A stretch of DNA of 64,000 nucleotides from Acidobacteria bacterium Ga0077534 (GTDB taxonomy: Bacteria > Acidobacteriota > Blastocatellia > Pyrinomonadales > Pyrinomonadaceae): the NCBI GenBank assembly GCA_001464455.1, contig LNEI01000017.1:124001-188000 (forward strand), read 5' to 3'. The notes under the pieces are model-generated. The model made no database searches. It was not told the DNA's origin and saw only the letters and a program-made list of their open reading frames with translations. Of the stretch, positions 8,901 to 26,912 are shown piece after piece. The first letter of the stretch is position 1. Each line of letters begins with the position of its first letter. A program made the translations under genes and the position numbers.

Positions 8901-11900
8901 CCCGTACTGCCCCCGCTTGTCGTATCCGCGTCGATCAAGGTTGAAAAGCTCTTGAACACGTTTCCGGTATTCGGATAAACGTAACGAGTGTAGCTAGACA
9001 ACACGCCGCTTCCAGACAGTGTTTCGCGCTCGAGGCGACCATCGCTGTAAAAGGCTCGCGTAGTAGTTTTTCCGTTAGGGCTAACGACCTCAACGTTTGC
9101 TCCCATGTCGTAGCGGTACTTTATCGTGGAAGAGTAACCCGCTGGATCTGTCAGCGTGGTCGGATAGGCAAATGTGGCCGTATGACCGGTAGTGGTAAAA
9201 CTGTCAGAATAACCGAATGTTGTCACTCTGCCCCTCGGATCAGTTCTAGTGATCGGTGATCCTGTTATGTTGTATTTAGTTGCCGAAACAGAACTCGATG
9301 TTGATCCCGTTACATCTTGGCGAGTCGCGGACGTTTGATTTCCTCGATAAGTTAAGCCGGTTCCGTAGCTTGAATCATGTTGTGTCGCAGAAACCGACTG
9401 ACCGGAGCCAGTGTAGCCGTTCTCATCGTACGCGAAACTCACCCGAGAAACGAGCGTCGAAACGCCCTGGTAGAGCGACACTTGCGACGGCAGTCCAATG
9501 ATACGTCGCGAGACGTAATTCTCGCTGAGATTATAGGTTGTCTCTGTCGTCCGTAGAGCGGAACCTTGATCCCATTCGTAAACCGCTGAAACCAGTCCGT
9601 ACCGCGAGATGGTGCTACTACCACTCTGCATCAAATACTCGACCGTAGTCTTTTTGGTATTCACGCCGTCGCCAATCTGAGTATGGTAGATTCTCGGATT
9701 CAGAATGTACGAAAGCGACGTATTATCCTGCGTGAATTCATTCCACGACCACCGCTTCCGGTCAGAACAGCTAGAGTCTGTGCCGATACAATCTTCGGTT
9801 GCGATAGTTAATCCCTCCAAATAACCGGAAGGCCCGAAGTGCTGGCGTGTATAAAGGTTATTATTCGGGTGATTCACAACCTCGATCTTTACTACGCTGG
9901 TTGCCTCGTTGCCATTCGGGCTACTGAACGTCGAACTCGCAGGGGCAGAGTTCGTCACGGTCACCGGCTGGGCTGTGCCACTAACCACATTGAAGCTCTC
10001 GGCCCAGATTTTCGTAGATGTAAATCGGGGACAATCTTGCTGAGTCCCTGAGACCGCGTCGAGATTGGTCGAAGTATAATTGAGGACGTGAGAGGGTGAA
10101 TCAGCAGCGATTTTGCTGACTTTCGTCACCTGCAAGTAGCCATTGTAGTCGAACTTCGTCGCACTTCCGTCGGCGTACGTTATTTTATCGAGCACTTTGA
10201 TCGACGAATTGTTTGTTGCTCCTTGAAGGGTCAAGCCGGTCGCGAAGCTGACGTTCAATGTCGTGTTTGTATAAGAGAGCGTAGCCCAGGTGTGGGGTGT
10301 ACCCGAGCCATTGCCGTTTGGATACCATGTCTGCGTGATAGTGGTCGGGTAGACATTATTCTCATAGTTGATCGTAATGACCCTGCCAAGAGTATCGGTA
10401 ACCGTCTCTAGGACGTGGTGGGTCGGATTGTACGCATTAGAGATGTAGTTTCCGTTGCGATCCATGATTTTCGTACATTTGAATAGGCCGCCTTTCAAGG
10501 CATAGCTCATTTGCGTTCCATCAGTGCTCGTAACTGTCAGGGAGGTCGGACTACTGCTTGAGGCCGTTACCAACTTGGCATATGTCGAGTTGACCGTTTC
10601 GTAATCGTAATCAACACCTGTTGACCGAAACTCCACGCGTTCGCCCGAAGGCGTAACCATAAGGTAAATCCATTTACTCTTTACCGAGTCGTAGTAAGCC
10701 GGTTCGACGATCGGGAAAGCGAACTGAAAACCGGGCGAAACGTTGTTGGAATCGGGATTGAAGTAAATGGATGAACCATCTTTGATCCATACGAGCGAGT
10801 TATAGCTTAAACCTAAATTAAGATCCAAGCCTGATCGACCGGGTAAGCTCACGAGAGACGTTCCCCAGCCAAAATTTTGTGAGTATACATTTGTTCCGCC
10901 GGTTGCGTTTTTCGGATGTAATCGGGCCGCAACGAGGTTAGGAGCGGGGGTTGGAGTTGGAGTGGGCGTCGGAGTCGCAGTCGGAGTTGGTGTGGGTGTG
11001 GGTGTTGCTCCACCTCCGCCAAAACTTACGGTCGTATTGTATATGTTGGCCCCCGATGGCATCAGACTTGTATCGACGACAAGCGGGTAGCTCGGGGATG
11101 TGGCGCTAGTGTAGATTAGGGTTCCGTTCTTTCTATACTTGACTTGTCCGCCCTCAACACCGATACGAAATACGTCGTTGTTCGAGTAAGAGCCTTCGTC
11201 CTTGTACGACCAGCCGATTTCGCGGATGGTCCAATTCCCGCCGCTGAATGTGATGCCAAAGTTTATTTCGGTATGGGTGCTCGTGCTTCCGGTTGATGTG
11301 CCGAGGCCGATGTATCCGTAGGTGCCAGAACTCGCTGTGAACTCCATGTACCCCTCGCCGCTTGAGAGTTGTTGTTGGCTGATCGCTCCAGCATCGGTAC
11401 AGCCGTCACAGCCACCGGTCTTTGTAAGGGTCGTCGAAGTATCCGTGACGTTAACTTTTTCGATCCAAATTACCGCTCCCGAGGGCGGGGGAGTTGGAGT
11501 TGGTGTGGGTGTTGAAGTAGGTGTTGGTGTTGCTCCACCTCCGCCAAAACTTACGGTCGTATTGTATATGTTGGCCCCCGATGGCATCAGACTTGTATCG
11601 ACGACGAGCGGGTAACTTGGCGATGTTGCGCTGGTGTAGATGACAGAGCCATTCTTGCGATAGACAACCTCACCGCTCTCAACTCCGATCCTGAACACGT
11701 CGTTTGCGGAGTAAGAGCCTTCATCTTTATACGACCAGCCGATCTCGCGGATGGTCCAAGTCGTCCCATCGAAATTTATCCCGAAATTAACCTCCGTGTG
11801 AGTCGTCGTGCTTCCGGTTGATGTGCCGAGGCCGATGTAGCCGTAGCTGCCAGAACTCGCTGTGAACTCCATGTAGCCGTCGCCACTTGAGAGCTGCTCC

Positions 11901-12504: not shown

Positions 12505-13230
12505 CTAGAAAGCCCCGATTACGTTATAGATATTCGCTCCGGCGGGCATGAGACTCGTATCGATCACCAGAGGGTAGGTTGGCGATGTTGAGCTTGTGTA
12601 GATAACAGACCCATTCTTGCGATAGACAACCTGGCCGCTCTCAACACCGATGCGGAACACGTCGTCGTTCGAATAAGATCCATCTGCCTTATAGGTCCAC
12701 CCGATCTCTCGGATTTGCCAAGCCCCGCTCCCAAATGAGATGCCAAAGTTAATTTCGGTATGGGTCGTTGTACTTCCGGTCGAGGTGCCGAGGCCGATGT
12801 AGCCGTAGCTGCCGGAACTCGCTGTGAACTCCATGTAGCCGTCGCCACTTGAGAGCTGCTTTTGGCTGATCGCTCCAGCATCGGCGCACCCATCGCAGCC
12901 GCCCGTTTTTGTTAGCGTCGTCGAGGTATCAGTGACATTAACTTTTTGGATCCAGTCTGAACTCACGGGAACCGTTAGAATCTCTGGGACGGTTAAGTTC
13001 CGATCTAGCGATGGCGGTCCGAATAATGCCCGCCCCTCACCGAACCGTGCGTGCGGATTGGCGGCTACACCAGTTGTCATTGCTTCTTGCAAGTTGAATA
13101 ACGCAAGACCGGTTACGATCGATACGATTAGTAGACAGCATACCCGGCCCGGCTTACCGTGAATGTTTCTTGAAGTGATATTAAGACGATCTCGTCCCTT
13201 GAGCGAAGATGCCGATGGAGAAAAAAACAT
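12505..13230 (-). CDS. Secreted single beta-domain protein related to the RHS N-terminus
   Basis: The 241-aa product has a signal or membrane segment (CCLLIVSIVTGLALFNL, residues 31-47), a low-complexity spacer, and from residue 92 a third copy of the beta domain found twice in the RHS protein. It ends right after the domain (GANIYN plus five residues). The start at 13230 has the ribosome binding site AGGAGG. It lies 119 bases upstream of the RHS gene on the same strand, so the two may share a transcript. It is either a stand-alone binding or adhesion module, or the front end of an older RHS gene that lost its shell. A catalytic function is not suggested. Confidence 0.7.
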   Translation of the reverse strand: MFFSPSASSLKGRDRLNITSRNIHGKPGRVCCLLIVSIVTGLALFNLQEAMTTGVAANPHARFGEGRALFGPPSLDRNLTVPEILTVPVSSDWIQKVNVTDTSTTLTKTGGCDGCADAGAISQKQLSSGDGYMEFTASSGSYGYIGLGTSTGSTTTHTEINFGISFGSGAWQIREIGWTYKADGSYSNDDVFRIGVESGQVVYRKNGSVIYTSSTSPTYPLVIDTSLMPAGANIYNVIGAF

Positions 13231-13858: not shown

Positions 13859-14893
13859 TTATTGATATTCACTAAAAGGAACTTGCGAACGGCCTACGCG
13901 GTCAAAAATCCCCACTAGGCGAACGCATTGGATTGTGCACTTTGGCGCACACCACTTCTCTGTCGAATACTGACGCTCAAACTCCTCCCAGGTGAAATCC
14001 TTTAGAGGAATATCAAGCACGCCGGAATTTGCAACAGGATCTCCGTGTTTTGCGCCGTCTTTGCACACGCGATGTTGTGAGCACCACTGTATGCGACCAT
14101 GTTCACAAATGTATAGATATCGAGCCCCAGCTCGACATTTCCACAACGATTCACCGTGCTCCAACAAATCTCTTTGAAACTTTGCGCTATAGTGGGCAAA
14201 TTGCAGTCGTGACTTGGCTGTAATCTGAATTATTTCATCATAGATTTTTTTAACATCACCACTGAATGGCCTTATCTGGCCATCCCCATCGTGTATGATT
14301 CCGACGGTACTGCCAAAACCTAGCTCCTTTGCACGTTTTGTAATAGTAAGCGCGTCCTCAGGATGAGGGATATCGCTACCGATTACAGAGTTTAGATTGA
14401 CATCAAATTGGGCTAGTTCCGCTAAATTCTGCAAAGTTCCTTTCTCCTCATAATAACTGAGGCTTTTTTTTGAAACGACATCAGGATGCACGTTGTCAAT
14501 ACTTATCTGAAGATCTTGCAGTCCTGCGGCATTGAGCTTCTCGATATTTTTCGTGGTTAGGGTCCGGCCGTGAGTTATAAGTCCGGCCATAATACCCTTC
14601 GATCGGATGTAACTGACTATTTCATATATACCCGGATGTAATGTTGGCTCACCCCCCGAAATTGTGATGTTAATCGTTCTGAACTCGGCTAGTTTATCTA
14701 TCCATTCCTTTACTTCTTCTATAGGTACTGGCTTCGAGTCATCATCTCGTTCGTTACAATAAGTGCAGGCGAGATCACATCTTCTCATTGGTATGATCTG
14801 AGCTAATACGACGCGCTTGTGTGTCGCCATACCATCAAGAATAAATTTAGCCGATTTTCTAAACCGATCCATCTTTGACTTTTCTTTTCCCAT
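13859..14893 (-). CDS. Radical SAM protein with SPASM/twitch-like cysteine-rich C-terminus
   Basis: The 344-aa protein carries the radical SAM cluster motif CDLACTYC near residues 39-46, the GGE motif in ITISGGEPTLHPGIYE, and further barrel motifs (ITHGRTL, LQDLQISIDNV). The C-terminal third has two cysteine groups, around WKCRAGARYLYICEHGRIQWC and CAPKCTIQC, which suggest one or more auxiliary iron-sulfur clusters as in SPASM-type enzymes. These use S-adenosylmethionine to start radical chemistry, often on peptides or lipids. No precursor peptide is evident; the only partner is the small membrane protein upstream. The start has a strong ribosome binding site lying inside a hairpin. The substrate is unknown. 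Confidence 0.85.
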   Translation of the reverse strand: MGKEKSKMDRFRKSAKFILDGMATHKRVVLAQIIPMRRCDLACTYCNERDDDSKPVPIEEVKEWIDKLAEFRTINITISGGEPTLHPGIYEIVSYIRSKGIMAGLITHGRTLTTKNIEKLNAAGLQDLQISIDNVHPDVVSKKSLSYYEEKGTLQNLAELAQFDVNLNSVIGSDIPHPEDALTITKRAKELGFGSTVGIIHDGDGQIRPFSGDVKKIYDEIIQITAKSRLQFAHYSAKFQRDLLEHGESLWKCRAGARYLYICEHGRIQWCSQHRVCKDGAKHGDPVANSGVLDIPLKDFTWEEFERQYSTEKWCAPKCTIQCVRLVGIFDRVGRSQVPFSEYQ

Positions 14894-15599: not shown

Positions 15600-16670
15600 T
15601 TAGTCAATTAATGATCTAAGTTCGGGGGCATCGTCGCTCTCCAGCGAGGTCGCCCAGATTTTGTCTAAAACACTTTCGGGTTTCTCAAGAAAAAGGGACA
15701 CTTGCCTGTCTACACCTTTTTCTTTCGCGGAAACTAATTTCTCGAATATTAAATTCGATGGCGTGAACCAAAACAGGGGGCTAGGCTTTCGTCCCGACAC
15801 GACCGGATGACGCGAGCTCATGCGGAGCACGTTAGTCCAACGCTCATCAACCGATTCCACCAGAACCGCCTTGATCCTTTTTACACCGTAGTTTTCCGTG
15901 TGTTTCTTCTGCTTCACCGTGTAATGGAAATGGCTACGGAGCTTTCGTTGCATTTTCTTGACCGACGTTGTTTTCCGATCGGCTTCGTAGAAGAAATACT
16001 GATTTTGATCTTCTCCTGTTCGGTCAGTGAAATACAGCCCAAAAAAGGCATCCGGACGGTGCGGCAGTATTTCTTTCCCGTCCGTCTCGGTCGGAGTGCC
16101 AGTAGAGTCAAACGCTAACCTTGAGACCTCAACCGAATTCCACAAAGCCGACCCTTGATAGAAGCCAAGCAATTTCACCCTATCGCCGGATTTCTCACAC
16201 GCTTTTTCGAGCATAAAGTGAAAACGCGAGATCATTAGCTCGTGGTGCAAATGCATCAGCCTGCCTTGTATCTTTAACATTTGCTTTCCGAGCGTAATTT
16301 CGGCGTACCGCTTTTCTCGGTTTCGCCGCACGACCTCGCGATCCTTGTCGTCATCGATCTCGTATCCGGCATTCGTTAGAAGCGCAAGCGATCGCTTGTC
16401 ATCAAGGTAGTAGTTAAACTCGGTCGGATAGAAACTCGACGGAAAAGCAAAACGGTTTACGAAGCCCTGATGATAAAGATTCTGCAGATGTCGCTCGGTT
16501 GTCCTAATATCTCCGTTGACTAGCCTAACGATCATCGAAGTCGGGATGAACCTATATCTGCGAATGATGTTTATGATTGCAATCGATCGGTTTGTTATCC
16601 GACGATTTGGAAGATTCTTCCTGTCTTCGCGGGTATATTTTTTAAGGCGAAGTCCTTTTTTCGCGGACAT
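15600..16670 (-). CDS. Replication-relaxation family protein
   Basis: The 356-aa product has the N-terminal winged-helix pattern of replication-relaxation proteins (a helix-turn-helix around IIRRYRFIPTSMIVRLV followed by TERHLQNLYHQGFVNR). It continues with the nuclease-fold-like part containing HLHHELMISRFHFMLE, PHRPDAFFGLYF, and YFFYEADRKTTS. The family is encoded on plasmids and integrative elements and is linked to their replication or relaxation. The gene is followed at 4 bases by the zinc-finger gene. Its presence, with the ATPase and the integrase further right, supports an integrative or conjugative element. Biochemical activity is not established for this family member. Confidence 0.75.
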   Translation of the reverse strand: MSAKKGLRLKKYTREDRKNLPNRRITNRSIAIINIIRRYRFIPTSMIVRLVNGDIRTTERHLQNLYHQGFVNRFAFPSSFYPTEFNYYLDDKRSLALLTNAGYEIDDDKDREVVRRNREKRYAEITLGKQMLKIQGRLMHLHHELMISRFHFMLEKACEKSGDRVKLLGFYQGSALWNSVEVSRLAFDSTGTPTETDGKEILPHRPDAFFGLYFTDRTGEDQNQYFFYEADRKTTSVKKMQRKLRSHFHYTVKQKKHTENYGVKRIKAVLVESVDERWTNVLRMSSRHPVVSGRKPSPLFWFTPSNLIFEKLVSAKEKGVDRQVSLFLEKPESVLDKIWATSLESDDAPELRSLID

Positions 16671-17315: not shown

Positions 17316-18593
17316 TCACAATTGATTGTAAAGCTTGATCGTGTCGTCCATAAGAGCTTCAAGACGGCTGGTCAGCAAAATCGCTTCGCACATAGTGCGC
17401 TGCGGCGTCGGCTCGGTGCCACCGATATTTTTGAGTCTAGCAAACTGGCGAATCATCACATCTATCGACCCTTGCAGTGTCGATTTTGCCTTCGGATCTA
17501 TCGACAAACATGTTTGCTTAATGCAAGAGGCAAACCACCAAAGACCTTGTACCGCAATCTCGAATTCAACTATACGTTCTTTAAGGCTGTATCGTTGCTC
17601 GGTGAGTTCGTGATACGAGACACCGGCCCAACTAGCAAACCCGACGCTGTTCCCCGACAAACCGAATTCGACAACATCTGGAAAGTGAAGGTCATTTCTT
17701 AAAATCTCTGCTTCCAAACGAATGGACTCTTCGCGTGATACCGAATCGACGCTTATCGTTCGGAGCGACGTTAAACAGGACAGAAGTTTTAGGGCTGTCC
17801 TAAGTTCCTGGGGCTCATTCCAAAGCGGGGATCTAAGGACTAACAACGAAAGAACATATCCCGGTTTTCCGCGAAGCGCCGAAAAGGGACATCCATGCAC
17901 AGAAGTGCCCATTGTCAACAGGATATTCTGAGTCCGGCCAAATATTGCATGACGTTCTTCAGTGATATCGTGATAAGTCTCGCGTCTCCAGCTAGCCAAG
18001 TCCGTGAGAGTGGTGAAAGAATGCGTTTCCTTAATGTGCCAAACGCCAACTCCTGTCGGTAGAATGTTTAGTGTTCCGTCTTCACTCGGTATCGGCTTAT
18101 GTTCTGTCCATAGGGTTTGTTGCGCTTGGGATTCAATCCGCCCGTAACAATTCGAGGCTAAAAAAATGGGAACGAACTTATGAGATTCGATCTCAAAGCT
18201 GCCTTCTAAACGAATCTTCGGGGAATTGACCGGATCACCGTCCAAATAGCACGGTACTCTTCTGACTTGACTGGCAACGAACCGATATCCTTTCCGACCA
18301 AAAACCGTTTCAATAAATTTCGGATTCTTGCGATCGTTATCATCCAGAGCATCTCTGATCTTGCTTATGTATCCGGTAATATTGCTTTCTTCAATGAACG
18401 TATCGGCTCCCCAAACGCCGTCTAACAAATCTTGGTGAGTTACAAAAAATCTTGGCCGGGACGCAAGGTAAACCAGAATGTCAAATCCTTTTCCGTCAAG
18501 GTTTATCCTTCGATTCTTTTCAAAGAGAAGTCGGTCTTTTGGGTTCAGTGTGAATCCATCGAACTCAATACAATCTAAGGCATCTTGATCCAC
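17316..18593 (-). CDS. OmpR-type winged-helix regulator with unidentified C-terminal domain
   Basis: Residues 8-110 are an OmpR/PhoB-type DNA-binding domain (FDGFTLNPKDRLLF, ILVYLASRPRFFVTHQDLLDGVWG, GYISKIRDAL, IETVFGRKGYRFVA). In Acidobacteriota this domain usually heads proteins with TPR or TolB-like parts. Here the remaining 310 residues match none of these and are of unknown type, with no membrane segment. The gene is divergent from the ubiquitin-like operon across 177 bases that contain interleaved palindromes, which makes it a candidate regulator of that operon and of itself. The isochorismatase gene follows it. Confidence 0.7.
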   Translation of the reverse strand: MDQDALDCIEFDGFTLNPKDRLLFEKNRRINLDGKGFDILVYLASRPRFFVTHQDLLDGVWGADTFIEESNITGYISKIRDALDDNDRKNPKFIETVFGRKGYRFVASQVRRVPCYLDGDPVNSPKIRLEGSFEIESHKFVPIFLASNCYGRIESQAQQTLWTEHKPIPSEDGTLNILPTGVGVWHIKETHSFTTLTDLASWRRETYHDITEERHAIFGRTQNILLTMGTSVHGCPFSALRGKPGYVLSLLVLRSPLWNEPQELRTALKLLSCLTSLRTISVDSVSREESIRLEAEILRNDLHFPDVVEFGLSGNSVGFASWAGVSYHELTEQRYSLKERIVEFEIAVQGLWWFASCIKQTCLSIDPKAKSTLQGSIDVMIRQFARLKNIGGTEPTPQRTMCEAILLTSRLEALMDDTIKLYNQL

Positions 18594-18635
18594 GGCTGTT
18601 CCAATATCAATTAGGAATTACTTTGGAAAAAATTG

Positions 18636-18664
18636 GGAATTTCTCTGTAGAAATTCCACAGAGA
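18636..18664. promoter_or_regulatory. Interleaved palindromes between regulator and ubiquitin-like operon
   Basis: Two perfect inverted repeats overlap: GGAATTTC/GAAATTCC (18636-18643 and 18650-18657) and TCTCTGT/ACAGAGA (18642-18648 and 18658-18664). They can pair only one at a time in RNA, or act as DNA operators. They lie just 43-71 bases before the regulator start and 107 bases before the ubiquitin-like gene. Confidence 0.55.
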
Positions 18665-18770
18665 TTTAGGGACATTCAGGTGCTCCTATGTCCAGAATTG
18701 TAGTGGTTACAGGATAAAAGTCAATTGCCTTTTGTGCCGTGACTATCTTACGAGTAGGAGAAAGAAAAAT

Positions 18771-19016
18771 ATGAAACGAATCACAATTTCGGTGGCGGGA
18801 ACAGACGGTAAACGGGAACACACTGACGTGGAGCTCATGCCCGGAATAAAACCAAGAGACGTGTTGGCCAAGCTTAATCTTGACGGATTTCAGCTTAGTA
18901 AGCCTGAGGGAGGAGCCTTCGATTTTAACGACGATCTTTATCAGGCGGTTTCGGACGGGCAGAAAGTCTTTGCTACAAAATCCGATGTGGTAGCGGGCGA
19001 GAGCTTTCGTGCGTAG
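18771..19016 (+). CDS. Ubiquitin-like (beta-grasp) protein, 81 aa
   Basis: The start is the ATG at 18771, preceded by TAGGAGA; an upstream in-frame start at 18732 is less likely. The protein shows the beta-grasp order: two strands (KRITISVAG, HTDVELMPG), a helix (KPRDVLAKL), then strands ending in GQKVFATKSDVVAG. It resembles prokaryotic ubiquitin-like proteins encoded next to E1-like and JAB genes, which is exactly its context here. The C-terminus is VVAG followed by ESFRA and lacks a Gly-Gly ending, so a modifier role would require trimming behind the glycine, perhaps by the JAB peptidase two genes on. The fold call is from pattern and context; conjugation is inferred. Confidence 0.7.
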   Translation: MKRITISVAGTDGKREHTDVELMPGIKPRDVLAKLNLDGFQLSKPEGGAFDFNDDLYQAVSDGQKVFATKSDVVAGESFRA

Positions 19017-19039
19017 TTTTTCACAACCCTTAACTAACC

Positions 19040-19061
19040 CGGCGGAGGCATTAGTCCGCCG
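19040..19061 (+). promoter_or_regulatory. Stem-loop after the ubiquitin-like gene
   Basis: A 7-bp GC-rich stem (CGGCGGA / TCCGCCG) with an 8-base loop sits 24 bases after the stop of the ubiquitin-like gene. There is no U run, so it is not a classical terminator. It could stabilise the 3' end of the modifier message and set its excess over the downstream enzymes. Confidence 0.45.
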
Positions 19062-19091
19062 CCGGCATTCTAAGGACCTGAGAACAGAAAA

Positions 19092-19544
19092 ATGGCAATC
19101 GTAATTGAACCAACACGCCCTATTCGGATCAGTCCATCGGTCGCCATATTAGTGGAGCCCTCTCGGGTTATCAAGGTTACACCGACAGAGGCGGTTCGGA
19201 TCGCTCCAGTTAAGGCTCTTGAAATGCGCCCGCCGCGTAGAGGGGCTTGGGATGAACGCGGCTGGACGCGGCGAATGGATGGCCGGAAGGAGTTGTATGA
19301 AGGCCATTATCAGGTTGGAACGCGGCGATTCTATGGACGGATTGAAAAAGAGCGAAGCGGAAAGATCACTGCGTACATCCACAATCCGCCTGTCGAAATT
19401 CGCCGTCACAGACATTCCGCTTGTTTTCAACAAGTCGGCGTAGGCACGGGCTGGTTCCTTTTGCACTGGCGCCGCGCCCCCAGCAATGTCGACGGCGCGA
19501 TTCTTTATATGGAGCAGGTACTCGACGAATCGTTCAACCGCTAA
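19092..19544 (+). CDS. Small PP/HxH/Cys protein A, candidate E2-like (150 aa)
   Basis: Residues 1-48 contain three imperfect 15-17-residue strand repeats (IEPTRPIRISP, VEPSRVIKVTP, VRIAPVKALEMRPP). Residues 66-150 form the domain shared with the protein encoded at 21431-21796. The shared signature is Y-I/L-x-N/D-P-P, five or six residues, H-x-H-x2-C-x-Q, then W-F-x-L-H. Here these are Pro99-Pro100, His106, His108 and Cys111. Classical E2 enzymes also place a Pro-Pro, a His and the catalytic Cys in this order, though with wider spacing. In an operon with a ubiquitin-like protein and E1 and JAB homologues, an E2-like role is a reasonable hypothesis, not an observation. Confidence 0.65.
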   Translation: MAIVIEPTRPIRISPSVAILVEPSRVIKVTPTEAVRIAPVKALEMRPPRRGAWDERGWTRRMDGRKELYEGHYQVGTRRFYGRIEKERSGKITAYIHNPPVEIRRHRHSACFQQVGVGTGWFLLHWRRAPSNVDGAILYMEQVLDESFNR

Positions 19545-19567
19545 ATAGTCGAGCAGGGAGTATCGAT

Positions 19568-20548
19568 ATGTTAAAGACGATCATCAGGGTATCGGAACGG
19601 GCGGCGAACTTGATAGCCCGACCATCTCGCGATGCGAGGCCGACTCTAAAACGGCTTGCGACGAGTCTTCGACGTGAATCAGCGCGAAGTCTTTCGATTC
19701 TGGCTCGCCGTTCGGCGGACGTTTATCCGGTAAGGGAACTACAGATCGCGATCGACAATCTAACGAATACGGATGCCGTAGTCCGACGAGTCTGCAATTC
19801 AAAGGAGTGGATCGATGCTGAACGCTCCTTGAGTCTAATCGATATTGAAATCGAACATGCGATGAACTTGATTCGGTCGGGGCTTATTTCCGGATCTATG
19901 GACGCCGGGGAAGTGGTGCTTCGGACATCAAACCTGCTTTTTACAGCAAAGCAGAAAATCAAAAACGAGTTCAATGTTATTACGGAACTCAAGCTCAGCT
20001 CGCTCCCGGCGCTAGATCCACGTCGATCGGACCTGAGCGTAGAGATTGAACCGCATCAGCTGCCGGAGTTCGCTTCGCCGCGCAAGTTGGTCTTGTCGTC
20101 CGCGATGCTCATGCAGATCGGACAGTCGCTTTTCCCACCGGAAAGAATGATCGTCGGAGCAGCGCGGCAGATTGGGAACGAGATAAGCGTCAAAGCACTA
20201 TTCGATGTAACCGGCTCAGCGAATTCAAGCCGTGTGGTAGCGGACCCAGACCGCCTCGGACGGGCATTGATCGCGATGGCCGAGTCTGATACGTATTTCG
20301 GGTTATGGGTGCATTCGCATCCCGGATCCGGCAGCCTATCGACGTACCCTAGTCCCATAGATACAACCCAACATGCCGACTGGCTAAGGGACTATTCGCC
20401 GAATCTTGTATCGGCAATTATCGTTCGAGATCGTTACATCCGATTTTGGGGAACGGCTCTCGAAGCCGGGGATGTTGTGATTGAGATCGAGGGGAGCGGC
20501 ATAGAGGTCGTGTCAGCGGAAGAAAGTGTTTACAGATTGGCTTGTTAG
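19568..20548 (+). CDS. JAB/JAMM metalloprotease (deubiquitinase-like)
   Basis: The start at 19568 has a CAGGGAG site; the longer open frame upstream overlaps the previous gene. Residues 1-165 are a helical domain of unknown type. Residues 172-326 are a JAB domain with the full JAMM set: Glu192 in PPERM, His249 and His251 in HSHPGSGSL, Ser262 and Asp265 in PSPID. The three extra residues between the histidines and the serine are as in other prokaryotic JAB proteins. JAMM enzymes are zinc isopeptidases that process ubiquitin-like precursors or remove them from targets. Placed between the modifier and the E1-like gene, it is the likely maturation or deconjugation enzyme. Confidence 0.85.
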   Translation: MLKTIIRVSERAANLIARPSRDARPTLKRLATSLRRESARSLSILARRSADVYPVRELQIAIDNLTNTDAVVRRVCNSKEWIDAERSLSLIDIEIEHAMNLIRSGLISGSMDAGEVVLRTSNLLFTAKQKIKNEFNVITELKLSSLPALDPRRSDLSVEIEPHQLPEFASPRKLVLSSAMLMQIGQSLFPPERMIVGAARQIGNEISVKALFDVTGSANSSRVVADPDRLGRALIAMAESDTYFGLWVHSHPGSGSLSTYPSPIDTTQHADWLRDYSPNLVSAIIVRDRYIRFWGTALEAGDVVIEIEGSGIEVVSAEESVYRLAC

Positions 20549-20561
20549 GGAGCATAACGAA

Positions 20562-21425
20562 ATGGAAGATAAAGCGATCGGAAAAGGAAATATTCTGGAG
20601 ACAAATGTTGTGGACACTCTGCCGGCGTTCCCGGAGGCGGAGAATCCCATTGAGGTTTATCAGTCGGAGGAAATAGTGGCAACGCATCCGGCGGAACCTG
20701 ATCTCTTTGCTCGGCACGACGGCGTTCCGGCACACGATCAAAAGCTCCTCGGGGAGGCACGGATTGTACTTGTCGGGGCGGGAGGACTGGGCGGATGGGC
20801 TGGTGTTGGTCTAGCTAGAAGCGGAGCAAAGTCGATCTGTGTGATCGACGATGACCAAGTAGATCGAACGAACCTGTCGCGACAGTTCTTTGATTCGGAC
20901 GATCTTGGGCGTTTGAAAGGCAAGGCACTTTCCAGACGACTCGCTGGGCAAGCGGTTGGCGGCGCGGTGGTGACGGGGGTTGGCCTACGGTTTGAAGAGG
21001 CACTTGAAGCCTATCCGCTTCCGGCAGATATCTTTGTTGCGGGTGTGGATAACAACGAATGTCGTATTCAAGTCGTTCGGGAAGCACGAAAGCGAAGCAT
21101 ACCAGCCGTCTTCACAATGCTTTCAAGGGACGGGATGAGGTGCCAGGCGTTCTTGCAAAGCGCATCAAGGCTAGAACCGTGTCTTTGGTGTGCACTACCG
21201 AACCTCGATCCTGAACAGGTAGCACCGTGCGCATCTGCGATTATCTCAAGCTGCCTTCTGGCCTCCGCGTTAACGATCTTTTTTACGCACAGAGCGATCA
21301 TGGGGTGGGGGAGCATACCATTTTTCAACTGGCGCGAAGCAGACCTATCAGGGATAGCACCGGATCGAACCGGTGTCATCAAACGCCGTGACGATTGTCC
21401 GGTCTGTTCGACACACAAGGAGTAA
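20562..21425 (+). CDS. ThiF/E1-like adenylating enzyme
   Basis: The chosen start at 20562 follows AGGGAG, 13 bases after the JAB stop. The 287-aa protein has a Rossmann nucleotide-binding loop GAGGLG (72-77), the ThiF/E1 motif DRTNLSRQ (101-108) with its catalytic Arg107, the lysine-rich KGKA (119-122), and an aspartate motif GVDNNECR. Cys207, Cys210, Cys279 and Cys282 form the two CxxC zinc knuckles typical of MoeB/ThiF/E1 enzymes. These proteins adenylate the C-terminus of a ubiquitin-like protein. Cys193, Cys223 and Cys231 are candidates for a thioester cysteine. The first 45 residues are an extra acidic extension. Confidence 0.88.
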   Translation: MEDKAIGKGNILETNVVDTLPAFPEAENPIEVYQSEEIVATHPAEPDLFARHDGVPAHDQKLLGEARIVLVGAGGLGGWAGVGLARSGAKSICVIDDDQVDRTNLSRQFFDSDDLGRLKGKALSRRLAGQAVGGAVVTGVGLRFEEALEAYPLPADIFVAGVDNNECRIQVVREARKRSIPAVFTMLSRDGMRCQAFLQSASRLEPCLWCALPNLDPEQVAPCASAIISSCLLASALTIFFTHRAIMGWGSIPFFNWREADLSGIAPDRTGVIKRRDDCPVCSTHKE

Positions 21426-21430
21426 TCGCG

Positions 21431-21796
21431 ATGGGTAAGTTAGCGGACAACATCATACGGTTCGTCGAGAATGTGGCCGGGCCACTCGATTGGATAAGGG
21501 AGTACGACGGTTCCTGCGAAACCTTTTCAGGCCGATTTCTTGTTTACGATCGCCGTGGTTCGATCAAAATGGGAGTACATGGCCAGGTAATAAGACGCGG
21601 CGGCAGGACAACCGATGTTTATCTCTACGATCCGCCACGGTTTGTTAGCCGCCACGAGCACGGACGCTGTCTGCAACTTCTTCGGCCCAACGACAAATGG
21701 TTCAAGCTTCACTTCGACAAACCCGCGGCCAACTTCTCTGAAGCCTACTCATATGTCGAACATTTCTTGACTGAGGCATATAACCAAAGTCACTAA
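21431..21796 (+). CDS. Small PP/HxH/Cys protein B, paralogue of the 19092 product
   Basis: The 121-aa product starts at 21431; its Shine-Dalgarno motif (AAGGAG) overlaps the E1-like stop. Residues 30-121 align with residues 69-150 of the 19092 product: Tyr-Leu-Tyr-Asp-Pro-Pro, then His75, His77 and Cys80 followed by LQLL, then WFKLHF and a C-terminal helix (AYSYVEHFLTEAYN). It lacks the N-terminal strand repeats of its paralogue. Two related proteins in one operon could be alternative carriers, or one could be active and the other structural. Both keep the cysteine. The E2-like interpretation is inference. Confidence 0.65.
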   Translation: MGKLADNIIRFVENVAGPLDWIREYDGSCETFSGRFLVYDRRGSIKMGVHGQVIRRGGRTTDVYLYDPPRFVSRHEHGRCLQLLRPNDKWFKLHFDKPAANFSEAYSYVEHFLTEAYNQSH

Positions 21797-21808
21797 CGGG
21801 AACGAGAG

Positions 21809-22504
21809 ATGAACGAATTTCTAACAGCGATCATTGGATGCCTTCCGTTGATTCTCTTCGTAGTACTGATCGCAGTAGGCGTCTCTCGGTTAAATACTAA
21901 CTTGTTTCCGAAGAATCGGCTTTTGCGACGAGTGTTGGGTGGGACTCTGCGGTTGGTCTTTGTCGAACCGTTCAGGCAATCCTATCGGGCTATTCGGTGG
22001 CTCGGAACAACCGTCGTTACCACAAACCCTGACTATCGAACGCGTCAACTGTATCTTGATAATTATCCTGTAACCCCGCTTGAGCTTTATGCCGTGATCG
22101 AAGCCGCATTTGAAGCGAGACAGATGGTTGGCGTGGAACTGTCCAGAGTATCGCGTCTTGAATGGCATCTGCTCTCGTCACGCCGGATCTATTTGCTGGT
22201 TAGATTCAGGGATGCAGTCTGCTTTATCGGGGCCGTGCGGGTAGGTAACGGCCTTCTCGTTTCATGGCGCTATTCGATCTGGCCCGGGCGTGTTTGGGTG
22301 GTTGTCTTTCAAATACCTTATCTCGGCGTACTTGCCGAACGAGTAATTTCAACACCGACATTTTATCGAACGGATGTCTACTTTGCTTTTGAGCAGGCTA
22401 TTCGGGTGTGCGTGACTGAGGCAACCGAAGCTCTAGCCGATCGAGGAATCCGACCATTGGCGGAGAACGAACAGCAGCCTCTTCTGCGAGAGTTCTATGG
22501 ATGA
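21809..22504 (+). CDS. Membrane-anchored protein of the ubiquitin-like operon, 231 aa
   Basis: One strong N-terminal transmembrane helix (residues 5-25, IIGCLPLILFVVLIAVGV) is followed by a basic segment and a soluble domain with several hydrophobic strands. A second hydrophobic stretch lies near 162-182 (RVWVVVFQIPYLGVLAERVI) and may touch the membrane. No family is recognised. Its stop overlaps the start of the ATPase gene by 8 bases, so the two are translationally coupled. It would most simply act as the membrane partner of the ATPase, similar to accessory proteins of TraG/VirD4 couplers. That role is inferred from the overlap. Confidence 0.6.
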   Translation: MNEFLTAIIGCLPLILFVVLIAVGVSRLNTNLFPKNRLLRRVLGGTLRLVFVEPFRQSYRAIRWLGTTVVTTNPDYRTRQLYLDNYPVTPLELYAVIEAAFEARQMVGVELSRVSRLEWHLLSSRRIYLLVRFRDAVCFIGAVRVGNGLLVSWRYSIWPGRVWVVVFQIPYLGVLAERVISTPTFYRTDVYFAFEQAIRVCVTEATEALADRGIRPLAENEQQPLLREFYG

Positions 22505-25500
22505 TGAAGCCTTCTACAAAGCATTCGAAGTCTGGGAACGCAACGGTCGCGGCTGGGGGCGATGGGATTACGCGGTTGAACTGGAGCCACCTTTCTCTCG
22601 AATTTCTCCGGTAGTTAGAGATACCCAGCGGATTGATGACGATGCGAGAGTGGGCGGCGGTATCTCAGGATTTTTGACCAGGAATCGACAGACCGGGACC
22701 GAAACCGTCAGGTTGCTGAGCAGGGGGGTGGAAAGCATCGCAACCGATATACCAAAACCCTCGCCGTATTATCGAAAAACGAATGCGACTGAACTGCAAA
22801 TTGTCTTACCTCGGGAACTGGATACAAGTCCGGCAACCTTTGAACAATTTCTTCTGAGTATCGGTTTTGCGAAAGACCCTATTAGTTTCGAAATAATCGC
22901 TGATTCGTTAGGTATCTCGTTGCAAATAGCCTGCGATCCGAACCGTGCGGGCTATCTAAAGAGTCAGTTAAAGACGTTCTTCCCTGAAGTACAGATCGTT
23001 GAACGATCTAGATTTCTGGCCTCTCAATTTGTAACCAGCCAACCGACAGCGATAGCGGACTTCGGTCTTGCGAAGAGTTTCGTTCTGCCGCTTCGAGTGT
23101 TTCGTTCTTTTAATCCCGATCCGATGGGCGGTTTGATAGGCTCGCTTGCAACGTTAGAAGAGACCGAAAAAGCTGTCCTCCAGGTTCTCTTCCTTCCGGT
23201 AAAAGGGGACTGGGCAGGCGAACTTAACAAGCTACAAACTGGCCCTCACACAAAGGCTACTCAAGAGAGGATCTCGAACTTCTTACCAAGCCTGAAAGCG
23301 AAACTATCGTCCTCACTGTTTGCCGCATCACTGCGACTTGTGACCCAGGCGAGTGATGGGCAGCGGGCTTGGGAACTTATCAGGCAGGTTGGCGGAAATC
23401 TCCGTAACTTCGATGATCCAGCCGGAAACGAACTGATCGCTCTAAGTAATGACGGCTATTCAGAAAACGACCATCGATTATCGATCCTTAGCCGCACAAA
23501 CTATCGATCGGGGATGCTTCTGAATACGTCGGAACTCGCGGCCTTTGTTCATCTGCCTTCATCTGGCGTAGCCGTCGAAAAGCTGAATCGCTCGCGTTTG
23601 GTGACAAAAGCCCTTCCACTAACAGCCATCGGCAACCGGCTGGTGATTGGTGAGAATACCCACGACGGAAAGACAAATGCCGTAACGCTGTCGAATGACC
23701 AGCGGACACGTCATGTTCACATTATCGGCACGACCGGCTCGGGGAAAACGACACTTCTGCTTCGCTCAATTATTCAGGATATCGAGCACGGTGCAGGTGG
23801 CGTCTGCGTTATCGATCCGCATGGCGATCTAGTCGTTTCTATCTGTGAACATGTGCCTGAAAACCGCATCAAGGATGTCATCCTTTTCGATCCTTCCGAT
23901 AGCGAGTACCCAATCGGTTTGAACATCTTGCAGGCTCACAACGATCTTGAGAAGACGCTCATATCGTCCGATCTGGTCGCGGCCTTTAAGAGGATGTCGA
24001 CAAGTTGGGGCGATTTAATGGATGCAGTGTGTGCAAACTCGATTCTCGCAATTCTGGAGAGCGAGCGTGGCGGCACACTGCTTGATCTCAAAAGATTCCT
24101 GGTCGACCGCGGCTTCCGTGAAGAGTTCCTGCAAACGGTACGAGACGAATCGATCCGCTACTTCTGGCAAAACGAGTTTCCGTTGATCGCCGGAAAACCA
24201 AACGCTTCGATCATCATCCGGCTCGATACGTTTCTCAGACAAAGAATGATCCGCAATATTGTCTGTCAGAAATCGAGCAAGCTGAACTTTCGGCAAATCA
24301 TGGATAGTGGGAAGATCCTGCTTGTAAAAATCTCTCAAGGAATTCTGGGCGTCGAAAACTCGCACCTGCTGGGTTCGCTGTTTATCACAAAACTCCATCA
24401 GATAGCCCTTTCGAGACAGAACACGACAGATAGACCTTTCTTCGCCATCTACATTGACGAATTTCACAACCTGATCGTACCGAGTTTAGAGGCCAGCTTA
24501 TCTGGAAATCGAAAGTTCAACATCAGCCTAACGCTAAGCCATCAGGAATGGCGGCAAATTCAAAGTCGTAGCCAAGAGGTGGCGGCAAGCGTGATGGCGA
24601 ACTGCTACACAAGAATATGTTTCCGTCTCGGTGACGCGGACGCAAAGCTATTCGCAAGCGGATTTTCGAGCTTTGATGCCGATGCTCTACAGAACCTTGG
24701 AATCGGCGAAGCCGTTGCTCGAATAGAGCGTTCGAATTATGACTTTAACCTCAAAACCTTCCAGCTACCTTCGGTCAACCCTGAATTGGCACAAAGCCGG
24801 AAGAAAAGAATAATCGAGCAAACGCGAAAACAGTTTGCCGCTATACCGGTGTCCGATCGGGAACCGGAAATTGTTCAGGCGATAGAGGATCGAAAGCAAA
24901 CTGCGGTGGCAACGATTGAGCCGGTACTCGATCGTGATAGAAACGCTCAACAAGCGTCTGAACCGATTCAAGTAGAGACAGCATCAGGTGAAAACGTCGG
25001 ACGCGCCGGGCCTCATCATCAAGAGATGCAGGGGGTAATAAAGCGAGTAGCCGAAACAAACGGTTTCAGGGCAAGTATTGAGCACAGTCTGCCCGACGGC
25101 GGTCGTATTGATGTCTCGCTTGAAAAGGGAAATCTAAGGGTCGCCTGCGAAGTGTCGGTTACGACGATCGACTATGAAGTTACAAATGTCCTGAAATGCC
25201 TCACTGCCGGATATGACTATGTAGCCGTTGTTGTATCAAATCAGAAAAAGATTCCACTGATCACGTCGAAGATCCAATCAGGTGTCCCTGTGGAGCATCT
25301 TGAAAAGGTCAGGGTGTTCGGCCTGCCTGGACTACTGGGTTTTCTGCGAGAGTTCGTCCAGCCGAAGCCCGAGCAAAGGCAACCACAAAAACCTGAAGGG
25401 CAAAGACTCAATTTCGCAGAAGCCCGCGAGTTCTTTGGTATAACCTCATCGACGCTTTACCGATGGGTGCGAGAGGGGCGCGTACCATTTTATCGCCCAG

Positions 25501-25670
25501 GCCGGGAGTACCTATTTGATCGTAGCGAACTTGTGCTGATCGGCAAGCAAGATCATTCTGCGAAACGAAAGGCGTCCGTTACGTTGTCTCCGCTGACAAT
25601 CGATAAGAAATCGCCGAAAAGTAAGAAAGATCAGGATTCTCGATATAGAAAACTATTAAAGTTGGACTAA
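22497..25670 (+). CDS. TraG/HerA-type ATPase fused to PD-(D/E)XK-like and HTH domains
   Basis: The 1057-aa protein starts at 22497. Residues 1-390 are a region without recognised motifs. A P-loop follows at G411-T419 (GTTGSGKTT), then a Walker B-like YIDEF with Asp654-Glu655 and the conserved HPHG-like IDPHGDLV. This is the layout of type IV coupling and HerA/VirB4 ATPases. Residues 845-960 look like a restriction-endonuclease fold, with Asp872, Glu885 and Ser887 in place of the usual Lys. Residues 970-1015 are a MerR/excisionase-type helix-turn-helix (TSSTLYRWVREGRVPFYRPG). The likely role is pumping or loading DNA, with the end domains giving site choice or cleavage. Mobile-element transfer or defence are both possible. 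Confidence 0.8.
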   Translation: MDDEAFYKAFEVWERNGRGWGRWDYAVELEPPFSRISPVVRDTQRIDDDARVGGGISGFLTRNRQTGTETVRLLSRGVESIATDIPKPSPYYRKTNATELQIVLPRELDTSPATFEQFLLSIGFAKDPISFEIIADSLGISLQIACDPNRAGYLKSQLKTFFPEVQIVERSRFLASQFVTSQPTAIADFGLAKSFVLPLRVFRSFNPDPMGGLIGSLATLEETEKAVLQVLFLPVKGDWAGELNKLQTGPHTKATQERISNFLPSLKAKLSSSLFAASLRLVTQASDGQRAWELIRQVGGNLRNFDDPAGNELIALSNDGYSENDHRLSILSRTNYRSGMLLNTSELAAFVHLPSSGVAVEKLNRSRLVTKALPLTAIGNRLVIGENTHDGKTNAVTLSNDQRTRHVHIIGTTGSGKTTLLLRSIIQDIEHGAGGVCVIDPHGDLVVSICEHVPENRIKDVILFDPSDSEYPIGLNILQAHNDLEKTLISSDLVAAFKRMSTSWGDLMDAVCANSILAILESERGGTLLDLKRFLVDRGFREEFLQTVRDESIRYFWQNEFPLIAGKPNASIIIRLDTFLRQRMIRNIVCQKSSKLNFRQIMDSGKILLVKISQGILGVENSHLLGSLFITKLHQIALSRQNTTDRPFFAIYIDEFHNLIVPSLEASLSGNRKFNISLTLSHQEWRQIQSRSQEVAASVMANCYTRICFRLGDADAKLFASGFSSFDADALQNLGIGEAVARIERSNYDFNLKTFQLPSVNPELAQSRKKRIIEQTRKQFAAIPVSDREPEIVQAIEDRKQTAVATIEPVLDRDRNAQQASEPIQVETASGENVGRAGPHHQEMQGVIKRVAETNGFRASIEHSLPDGGRIDVSLEKGNLRVACEVSVTTIDYEVTNVLKCLTAGYDYVAVVVSNQKKIPLITSKIQSGVPVEHLEKVRVFGLPGLLGFLREFVQPKPEQRQPQKPEGQRLNFAEAREFFGITSSTLYRWVREGRVPFYRPGREYLFDRSELVLIGKQDHSAKRKASVTLSPLTIDKKSPKSKKDQDSRYRKLLKLD

Positions 25671-25717: not shown

Positions 25718-26821
25718 GTGACAGTTAGAAAAAGAAAGGATACTGGCAAATGGGTCAGTGATTTTTATTACCAGGGCGAACGAATTGTGAGGACACTAAA
25801 ATTCGCCAGAACGAAGAAAGAAGCCGAACAAGCTGAAGCCGTAATCATGAATCAGGTGTTTCAGCAGGCTTACGGATTCGAAGCAAAGCCTGATAAGCTC
25901 TTTGAGAATTTTATTATTGACTCATTTTTGCCGTACTCTGAAGCGAATAAGAAGTCGTTTGCAAGCGACGTATACATATGTCGCCAACTGGTCTCCTATT
26001 TTCGCCGAAAGACAATTCGACAACTAACCCCTTCCCTAATCGAGGAATTTAAGCAGTGGTTCTTAGCAAAGCCTATTGTGTTCGGACCGGATGGCGAGAA
26101 AAAAGAACGACCTCGCAGTCTAGCTACGGTTAACAACCATTTGCGAGTTTTATCAAAAATTCTCTCATTGGCGGTAGACGCGGAACTAATCGATTCGAAT
26201 CCGGTGTTTCGGGTGAAGAAATTCAAGCCAAACAACAGACGGCTAAGGGTTCTTTCGGATGAAGAAGAAGCGGCTCTATTGGCCGCGTTAGATGGCAACG
26301 ACCTGATCCAGTGTATCGTAATCGTCGCTCTCAATACCGGTCTTCGTCGGGGTGAAATCTTTGGTCTTAAATGGGCGGACGTAGATTTTGAGAGAGGACG
26401 GCTCATTATTCGCAAAACTAAAGCGAGTAAAGAGCGGTTTGTTCCAATTAACTCTACTGTTCGGAAACTCTTGCGATCGATTCCGCGTCTTTTAACTGAT
26501 TACGTTTTCCCGAGTCCAAAAACGGCGGGGCGACTGATCGACATTAAAAAGGGCTTTCGAACTGCGGTCGATTTTGCGAAGATCAAGAACCTTCGGTTTC
26601 ACGATCTGCGCCATACTTTCGCAACACGCTTAGCCGATTCAGGTACCGACGCGTACACCCTAATGGAAATAATGGGTCATGCCGACATCAAGACGACCAT
26701 GATCTACGTCCATGCGTCAGCAGAGGCTGGACGTAGCGCTGTAGAGAAACTCGATTCAAATCGGTATTTTAGTCACGAGATGGTAACTAAAAGAAAAACG
26801 GCAGATGCCAATCTGCCCTAA
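25718..26821 (+). CDS. Tyrosine recombinase (integrase)
   Basis: The 367-aa product starts with GTG at 25718 after AAGGAGGT. It has an AP2-like N-terminal arm domain, a core-binding domain (about 60-160), and the catalytic domain with Arg210 (TGLRRGE), His295 and Arg298 (HDLRHTF), His321 (MGHADIKTT) and the nucleophile Tyr330. This is a phage/ICE-type integrase that joins element and chromosome att sites. It ends 15 bases from the 3' end of a tRNA gene, the classic arrangement for integration into a tRNA. It therefore marks the right end of the accessory block. Confidence 0.93.
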   Translation: MTVRKRKDTGKWVSDFYYQGERIVRTLKFARTKKEAEQAEAVIMNQVFQQAYGFEAKPDKLFENFIIDSFLPYSEANKKSFASDVYICRQLVSYFRRKTIRQLTPSLIEEFKQWFLAKPIVFGPDGEKKERPRSLATVNNHLRVLSKILSLAVDAELIDSNPVFRVKKFKPNNRRLRVLSDEEEAALLAALDGNDLIQCIVIVALNTGLRRGEIFGLKWADVDFERGRLIIRKTKASKERFVPINSTVRKLLRSIPRLLTDYVFPSPKTAGRLIDIKKGFRTAVDFAKIKNLRFHDLRHTFATRLADSGTDAYTLMEIMGHADIKTTMIYVHASAEAGRSAVEKLDSNRYFSHEMVTKRKTADANLP

Positions 26822-26835
26822 GTTATTGATTCTTA

Positions 26836-26912
26836 TGGTGGCTGGAGAGTGACTTGAACACTCGACCTCGGGGTTATGAATCCCGCGCTCTAACCAGCTG
26901 AGCTACCCAGCC
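26836..26912 (-). tRNA. tRNA with CAT anticodon (tRNA-Met, possibly tRNA-Ile2)
   Basis: The minus strand folds as a cloverleaf: acceptor GGCTGGG/TCCAGCC, D arm GCTC...GAGC, anticodon loop TTCATAA, T arm GAGTG-TTCAAGT-CACTC, discriminator A and encoded CCA. The anticodon is CAT. Elongator methionine is the simplest call; a lysidine-modified isoleucine tRNA cannot be excluded without comparing recognition elements. One base pair at the bottom of the anticodon stem is a mismatch (A-C). Its 3' end faces the integrase gene and is the probable attachment site. Confidence 0.93.

Follow-up and report, generated by a model that had tools for sequence, protein, structure and literature searches.

A ubiquitin-like cassette within a coupling-ATPase operon

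We analysed a 64,000-nucleotide stretch of the genome of Acidobacteria bacterium Ga0077534 (contig LNEI01000017.1, positions 124,001 to 188,000; hereafter the window, from genome G000 in our numbering) and found that seven closely packed genes on its (+) strand, at 18771-25670, join the parts of a ubiquitin-like protein (Ubl) conjugation pathway to a DNA-pump ATPase, in the order Ubl, E2a, JAB, E1, E2b, membrane protein, ATPase (Table 1). We tentatively read this arrangement as an integrative element of 38 kb whose DNA-translocase operon has a Ubl-conjugation module built in; the module would most likely tag the pump, its membrane partner or cargo, a reading that we hold with slightly less conviction than doubt. 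The gaps along the seven genes are 75, 23, 13, 5 and 12 bp, followed by an overlap of 8 bp between the membrane protein and ATPase genes. The original prediction, made from the letters of the sequence, had described seven tightly spaced co-directional genes ending in a large ATPase gene that overlaps the membrane protein gene; coordinates and strand proved exact to the base, and the motifs that it had named (two paralogous Cys proteins, JAMM ligands, GAGGLG and two CxxC pairs) are present, with key residues conserved in relatives. It had also proposed a search for the same gene order elsewhere, whose absence from all other genomes would have counted against it, and the full order recurs in genomes G006 and G435 and, on two contigs that meet between E2a and JAB, in G035. 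Compared with G006, eight genes including the integrase differ by 0.16-0.28 at amino-acid-changing sites (pN) and 0.74-0.88 at silent sites (pS), so that amino-acid-changing differences lie far below silent ones; dN/dS was unusable, dS being saturated in 7 of the 8 genes. The recurrence of the order and the predominance of silent changes indicate that the seven-gene arrangement is more than chance.

The pump ATPase and its membrane partner

The ATPase passes the curated cut-offs of TrwB_AAD_bind (PF10412, 54.9 bits against 20.5), TraG-D_C, T4SS-DNA_transf, DUF87 and HTH_17, with PF12696 at 30.1 bits (cut-off 22) and PF02534 at 28 (20.1), and by its core domain it is a type IV coupling ATPase of the TrwB/TraG kind. 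An N-terminal domain (residues 1-380) precedes the core (~381-745), which is followed by an apparently nuclease-like C-terminal region and an excisionase-type helix-turn-helix (HTH). The N-terminal 380 residues gave no Pfam match at E up to 1 in any of the four copies tried, and a conserved G-x-[IV]-D-V-x-[LI]-E ... [CA]-E pattern in the C-terminal region looks like that of a PD-(D/E)XK nuclease. When ten proteins were scanned against defence models, the ATPase matched two members of the mad1-8 set of MADS defence, mad8 (E 1.9e-18) and, via the HTH, mad1 (E 2.1e-8). The position of this HTH shifts: in the window the ATPase ends with it, and in G435 the serine recombinase does. The ATPase of G008 (L015 7450-10640) is split into two overlapping frames, and this copy is perhaps inactive or misassembled. 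Another HerA/TraG-like ATPase, shorter at ~400 aa, recurs in L023, L055, L077 and L081, sometimes with a Rep-like gene nearby and a protein whose start contains GARKVTR, and perhaps belongs to another element family.

The membrane protein gene lies directly 5' of the ATPase gene in all ten of the 13 loci where its position could be read, the copy in G434b being recognised only by alignment. PrgI/VirB3 proteins precede VirB4-type ATPases, which agrees with the place of the membrane protein before the pump, and the G435 copy has a weak PrgI match (E 0.025). By hydropathy, an N-terminal hydrophobic segment is present in all four Ubl-linked copies and in none of six others, and in the membrane protein tree the four Ubl-linked copies form one clade (100/100).

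Domain-wise trees point to a mosaic ATPase

Trees were made for each part of the ATPase from 12 sequences, leaving out G434b and G433 (very long branches); the N-terminal tree has 11 rows, as G036 lacks this sequence. For residues 1-380, the four Ubl-linked sequences form one clade (100/100), and a forced grouping by tyrosine recombinase was rejected (approximately unbiased test, p-AU 1.94e-88). The C-terminal part instead splits by the recombinase of the element, tyrosine-type (5) versus serine-type (7), again at 100/100, and there a Ubl clade was rejected (p-AU 1.65e-51); for G435 and the five tyrosine cases the recombinase type comes from Pfam or tblastn, and for the remaining six it was judged from sequence resemblance. 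The core is the most alike part (53-81% identity between pairs), and in its tree the Ubl-linked four are not a clade (p-AU 0.040; G035 has a long branch) and G435 groups with G434a. The G435 protein locates the change: windows along its N-terminal domain are 35-51% identical to the other three Ubl-linked proteins versus 22-40% to serine-type relatives, and this preference flips near residues 390-400 and is reversed in every later window. G008 and G023, despite different recombinases, form one clade on the membrane protein and ATPase N-terminal domain, a grouping rejected on the C-terminal part (p-AU 3.9e-37).

On these trees the ATPase is a mosaic. Their discordance therefore defines one unit in which the cassette goes with the membrane protein and the ATPase N-terminal domain, and a second in which the ATPase C-terminal part goes with the recombinase. 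In our sample, the Ubl-type N-terminal domain and membrane protein occurred with the cassette in every case (4 of 4), and the plain type never with it (0 of 5 readable loci).

Occurrence of the cassette

Two Ubl peptide patterns, scanned against the 84,980 species of the GTDB collection, returned seven loci, six of them real and from five Acidobacteriota genomes; the seventh (L049) was a chance match in an aminotransferase frame. The Ubl occurs in 5 of 162 genomes of the class, with JAB in the same five, in 3 of 396 genomes of an even draw from the phylum (by E2 and by Ubl), and in 1 of 38 genomes of the class of G219. The total is six genomes (G000, G006, G035, G435, G437 and G219), and by these counts the cassette is rare and found here only in Acidobacteriota. 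All four pump-linked elements keep the seven-gene order, across two recombinase types and three different tRNAs. The G437 contig ends within E1, and G219 carries two four-gene copies (Ubl-E2-JAB-E1).

Full-type ATPases, defined by E below 1e-170, number 13 in 12 genomes, and the upstream flank is readable for nine. The cassette stands upstream in G000, G006, G035 and G435, and the flank could not be judged in G020, G036, G460 and G434a. Neither Ubl, E2, JAB nor E1 gave a match at E up to 0.01 in the stretches examined of the nine cassette-free or unjudged loci. The elements of G435 and G439 both lie at tRNA-Asn, with similar host genes beyond (judged by protein starts), and only that of G435 has the cassette; the pair is a natural comparison of an element with and without it.

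The conjugation proteins

Failure of the beta-grasp protein to fold like ubiquitin had been set beforehand as grounds for giving up the prediction. The AlphaFold2 model of the Ubl is a beta-grasp (predicted local distance difference test, pLDDT, 77.7). Aligned to ubiquitin-fold proteins with VIA-align, it reaches Z 10.7 at a root-mean-square deviation (rmsd) of 1.4 over 68 residues, and 617 of 997 aligned chains have Z of at least 8; Foldseek gave 15 matches at E of 0.001 or lower, including 6fj7 (TM 0.70), the best E-value being to an ESX-3 translocon (6umm_B, E 1.2e-4). The Ubl is thus predicted to fold like ubiquitin. In the seven Ubls, the window's included, the core is conserved up to Ala-Gly and is followed by a variable tail (ESFRA, LYVRPSTL, RRNRLRQAI, SK, GN, LAA and LAA). 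Because the tail varies past the invariant Ala-Gly, as in a peptidase-trimmed precursor, the Ubl may be trimmed by the JAMM peptidase of the operon; trimming of BilA by BilC is reported in the excerpted text of PMC11354881. None of the seven Ubls matched the Pfam prokaryotic Ubl families at E up to 10 (other families listed were single-member, chance-level matches), alignment against PDB sequences gave no significant match, and no relatives were confirmed in viral contigs or plasmids.

E2a and E2b are paralogues. The His and Cys of an H-x4-C motif (His106 and Cys111 in E2a), which is followed by W-F-x-L-[HN], are invariant in 11 of 11 sequences; this Cys, with the His five residues ahead, is the candidate for the catalytic Cys expected of the E2/UBC superfamily. 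The AlphaFold2 model of E2b (pLDDT 82.2) has a four-strand meander, then the motif loop and a long helix. With VIA-align, its best 32 rows are of E2/UEV/RWD type by title or chain length, one of them a Bub-complex chain, and the next, unrelated row falls to Z 4.7. The best row is the Tsg101 UEV (Z 8.0, rmsd 3.4, 97 of 121 residues aligned); a chain of the CdnG-E2 complex (8hsb_B) reaches Z 7.5 (rmsd 3.4, 101 aligned) and a chain of the BubCD-BubB complex (9eae_C, listed by complex rather than by subunit) Z 6.8 (rmsd 3.5, 96 aligned). E2b therefore probably, rather than provenly, has an E2 core fold. T4 MotA, first in the Foldseek list for E2b, fell below the E2 rows after re-alignment and was rejected. 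None of the 11 E2 proteins matched the Pfam E2 families (Prok-E2) at E up to 10, alignment against PDB sequences gave no significant match, and no relatives were confirmed in viral contigs or, for E2b, in phages. E2b is present in the four pump-linked cassettes and missing from the single pump-free cassette with a readable flank. An N-terminal transmembrane segment is predicted for E2a of G435 (L046 8252-8863) and of G437 (L045 3529-4137), and for none of four other E2a copies tested.

In JAB, E192, H249-S-H251-P and S262-x-x-D265 are invariant in 7 of 7 sequences. All seven members match Prok-JAB at E up to 0.1, the window's copy lying below the Pfam cut-off (21.1 versus 25 bits); alignment against PDB sequences gave nothing significant (E 0.37 for an archaeal Rpn11-like protein). 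The E1 matches PF00899 (E 1.2e-25), with one ThiF match at 56-236 of the 288 aa scanned. Its nucleotide motif is GAGGLG in the window and GAGGLN or GGGGLN in five relatives, and the CxxC pairs C207/C210 and C279/C282, together with C223 and C231, are invariant in 6 of 6 sequences. Alignment of the E1 against PDB sequences matched MccB, ThiF, MoeB and eukaryotic E1s (among the best 60 of 68 matches), and the best PADLOC E1-E2 model gave E 1.6e-14. No relatives of the E1 were confirmed in viral contigs; plasmid matches lie in 16 Rhizobium/Sinorhizobium records, and the one neighbourhood inspected of these 16 is an unrelated peptide-product cluster with MoaD/ThiS and MoeB genes.

The integrated element

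The original prediction had placed the operon on an integrated element, and this is backed by the presence of an integrase gene beside a tRNA whose end recurs as a 51-bp direct repeat. The integrase gene starts 47 bp past the ATPase gene and tRNA-Met follows another 14 bp on (Table 1). A search of the tRNA end against its own genome with blast gave a single further perfect copy (attL, G000:C17:112693-112743), 11.3 kb left of the window. The perfect 51-bp repeats lie 38.1 kb apart and therefore bound an element of ~38.2 kb ending in tRNA-Met, which, with integrase, tRNA target and flanking direct repeat all present, is an integrative element as judged by its sequence. In 9 relatives that have a close homologue of the gene flanking attL on the left, no empty integration site was found, as neither tRNA-Met nor a match to the right flank appeared in the short stretches examined, and no att repeat was found in the stretches examined for G435 and five other relatives. 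The tRNA beside the recombinase gene in relatives is Met in G008, Thr in G006, G020, G036 and G434b, Phe in G034, Ala in G434a, and Asn in G435 and G439; none was found in the examined stretches of G035, G023, G447, G460 and G433.

Table 1. Genes and sites of the operon and its element, in window coordinates.
Feature	Position	Strand	Description
Ubl	18771..19016	+	Single ubiquitin-like protein, predicted beta-grasp, 81 aa; core ends DVxAG (Gly76), tail here ESFRA
E2a	19092..19544	+	E2-like, H-x4-C motif, Pro-rich N-terminal region
JAB	19568..20548	+	JAMM/JAB peptidase; N-terminal region ~170 aa; metal and catalytic ligands complete
E1	20562..21425	+	Single-domain ThiF/MoeB-type adenylating enzyme, two CxxC zinc pairs
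E2b	21431..21796	+	Second E2-like protein
Membrane protein	21809..22504	+	Extra N-terminal transmembrane segment; apparently VirB3/PrgI-like position beside the ATPase
ATPase	22497..25670	+	TraG/TrwB/HerA-type, 1057 aa
Tyrosine integrase	25718..26821	+	Integrase of the element; PF00589, E 6.5e-34
attR	26833..26883		51-bp direct repeat of tRNA end
tRNA-Met	26836..26912	-	Integration target; ARAGORN
Winged-helix (Trans_reg_C) regulator	17316..18593	-	Divergent from the operon; PF00486, E 2.6e-15
Replication-relaxation-like protein	15600..16670	-	Element core; PF13814, 22.7 bits, just under the cut-off of 25.3

The element also encodes an Eco57I-type N6 methylase, an HD phosphohydrolase, an AEP-like primase domain, a DnaG-type zinc ribbon, a serine resolvase, a radical-SAM protein and an RHS protein. 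The primase, phosphohydrolase and methylase, in its left part (L033 5493-11134, G000:C17), are possible further defence cargo. The RHS-repeat protein has 2132 aa (window 5987-12385), and a shorter neighbour (12505-13230) has the same N-terminal sequence. Radical-SAM genes that are alike lie on this element (13859-14893) and near the cassette-free operon of G439 (L079 6406-7437), and a 70% identical copy of the Replication-relaxation-like protein adjoins the cassette-free ATPase operon of G023. Divergent winged-helix regulators related to the window's were found in G006, G435 and G437, and none was recognised in G035. In G435 (L055 16636-19251) the regulator runs on into a long membrane region that matches UbiA prenyltransferase, and that of G437 (L045 543-3134) likewise extends into a long membrane region. 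The interval between regulator and Ubl (18594-18770) holds an inverted repeat, TCTCTGT-N9-ACAGAGA, spotted by eye, which may be an operator.

Relation to known systems

Bacterial operons of Ubl, E1, E2 and JAB have been known since Iyer et al. 2006, some of them on conjugative elements (PMC1779556, in excerpt). The excerpted review of Bil describes a conjugation system that has, as in the window, Ubl, E2, JAMM peptidase and E1 in the order of the Bil letters, and trimming of the Ubl, which is likely here (PMC11354881). The window's operon differs from Bil in that its Ubl is one domain of 81 aa, whereas BilA has two tandem Ubl domains; its E1 has one ThiF domain and is therefore simpler than BilD, which has an inactive and an active adenylation domain and a Cys domain; its E2s carry H-x4-C where the Bil E2 has CEHH; and a second E2, a membrane protein and a pump set it apart. 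We take the Bil letters to reflect the Bil gene order. Type 6d of the 2006 classification (Iyer, Burroughs and Aravind; types 6a-6e) comprises Ubl, JAB, E1, E2 and a helical protein and, like the window, has separate genes for Ubl, E1, E2 and a JAB with an N-terminal extension (PMC1779556, in excerpt). Two E2s and a coupling-type ATPase distinguish the window's operon, in which no helical partner was recognised, and its E1 scores 42.1 bits against a PRTRC_ThiF cut-off of 144.75; type 6d is presumably the later PRTRC cassette.

In type II CBASS, a CD-NTase lies in the operon and E1 and E2 are fused. The E1 of the window resembles the PADLOC E1-E2 models and its E2b matches the CdnG-E2 chain, but unlike Cap2/Cap3 its E1 and E2 are on separate genes, it has a Ubl gene of its own, and no nucleotide cyclase was recognised in the operon. 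Bub operons are likewise ubiquitination-like, and E2b matches a Bub-complex chain; on a comparison that covers Bub in part, the window differs by its winged-helix regulator. Of 544 Bub operons, 219 adjoin CapW or CapH+CapP and 59 adjoin CapK+CapS, and Bub is presented as a large family whose phage protection is not yet shown, according to excerpts of PMC13373217. The window's operon shares with YukD/EccD of type VII secretion a Ubl fold near a HerA/FtsK-superfamily pump and a membrane protein. To our knowledge, the type VII system lacks E1, E2 and JAMM proteins and serves a protein pump rather than a DNA pump. Since defining features of Bil, type II CBASS and PRTRC were absent when tested, and no report of a Ubl cassette with a coupling ATPase was found, in a literature search largely outside subscription papers, we place the operon as a variant of the bacterial Ubl-E1-E2-JAB operons.

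Proposed working and alternative explanations

In the working that we propose, the JAB peptidase would cut the Ubl precursor after Gly76, and the E1 would adenylate the exposed Gly and take up the Ubl, perhaps on C223. E2a and/or E2b would accept the Ubl on the Cys of the H-x4-C motif, with E2b acting beside the membrane protein, whose anchor occurs only in the Ubl version. The Ubl would be joined to the pump N-terminal domain, the membrane partner or a protein moved with the DNA, JAB could take it off again, and tagging may set the timing of pump assembly or running, for example after excision. The chemical steps, the target and any effect on transfer are our inference. In the simplest functional account, the pump N-terminal domain and the membrane partner would be what the Ubl enzymes act on or through, and the added E2b and added membrane segment fit this. 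With a little more reserve still, we suggest that the element may tag its own pump, membrane partner or transferred nucleoprotein via the dedicated E2b, thereby switching transfer on or off.

Several observations weigh against this reading. The pump exists without the cassette, as in five of the nine loci with a readable flank (G008, G023, G434b, G439 and G447), and the cassette exists without the pump, since the G219 copy with a readable flank (L041) has no E2b, membrane protein or ATPase next to it and an integrase and Replic_Relax gene upstream. The G434 element (L077 8177-14328) has a different set of genes in the slot of the cassette, among them one that encodes an AAA ATPase domain; a cargo hotspot would show such replacement. 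The whole-length ATPase tree did not recover a single Ubl clade, though it did not reject one (p-AU 0.088), and co-inheritance may arise by linkage alone, because a single crossover in the conserved ATPase core would carry all upstream genes along. The E2 fold match is modest, and we grade it as probable because Foldseek by itself gave no match for E2b at 0.001 and, as the aligner itself warns, Z near 8 is common and can reflect merely a shared arrangement. The original prediction had modifier pathway and DNA-transfer machine belonging together: that the membrane protein and ATPase N-terminal domain are inherited with the cassette speaks for this. Apart from the ATPase, its membrane partner and the Replic_Relax-like protein, the selected open reading frames scanned showed no transfer apparatus, mating-pair formation genes or relaxase, so that 'DNA-transfer machine' is inferred from the ATPase.

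The main rival, which we consider unlikely, is that the cassette is a self-contained Bil/CBASS-like module for defence against phages or plasmids, which rides on the element and tags invader proteins, with the pump merely adjacent. Known anti-phage pathways include Bil and CBASS (PMC13373217, in excerpt), the Ubl-E2-JAB-E1 order matches the letters BilA-B-C-D (with roles as given in the excerpt of PMC11354881), the E1 matches PADLOC E1-E2 models, the element carries the Eco57I-type N6 DNA methylase, and the four-gene form of G219 adjoins DNA methyltransferases and an integrase. Such a module leaves out of account that the pump-linked form has a second E2, a membrane-protein type of its own and a common breakpoint inside the ATPase. 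Against the PADLOC models, the Ubl and E2s of the window gave no match at E up to 1, one of seven JABs has a weak JAB match (E 0.05), and the seven genes include no cyclase or recognised effector, though the ATPase could itself be the effector.

A decidedly improbable explanation is hitchhiking, in which the position ahead of the pump serves as a cargo hotspot, and the upstream genes and N-terminal domain move together, without joint function, through linkage and a crossover in the core. The other genes in the slot of L077 are as expected from this, and the crossover sits at the edge of the ATPase core, the most alike part. Against it stands the pairing of the Ubl-type N-terminal domain and membrane protein with the cassette alone, together with E2b and the membrane segment, which are specific to the pump-linked form in our sample; linkage by itself would leave this exclusive pairing unexplained, in what is a small sample.

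It is very unlikely that the Ubl is a structural adaptor, docking as YukD/EccD does beside the FtsK-type ATPase of type VII secretion with conjugation secondary: its best Foldseek E-value is to the ESX-3 translocon, and a YukD neighbourhood with an FtsK-like ATPase is described (PMC1779556, in excerpt), but other ubiquitin-fold entries score similarly, and the Ubl is conserved together with an E1, a JAMM peptidase and two E2s that bear the Cys. Least credible is a sulfur-carrier pathway of the ThiS/MoaD kind, which the nearness of the E1 to MoeB/ThiF models would favour, since the E1 is far under the equivalog cut-off of its best model (74 versus 449 bits), no rhodanese domain is among its Pfam matches, two E2s and a JAMM peptidase are present, and the Ubl has a tail after Ala-Gly where ThiS and MoaD end in a free Gly-Gly.

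Significance

As far as we know, bacterial ubiquitin-like cascades have so far been linked to phage defence or left without a role. If our reading of a conjugation module built into the translocase operon is true, it would be, as far as our searches show, the first connection of ubiquitin-type conjugation with the machinery of horizontal gene transfer, and would bring a Ubl and an E2 family outside the current Pfam families. Intragenic recombination marks the part of the pump with which the pathway appears to belong, so that the question of bacterial Ubl targets becomes testable on two candidates, the pump N-terminal domain and its membrane partner. Protein tagging would then join the ways in which mobile elements regulate themselves.

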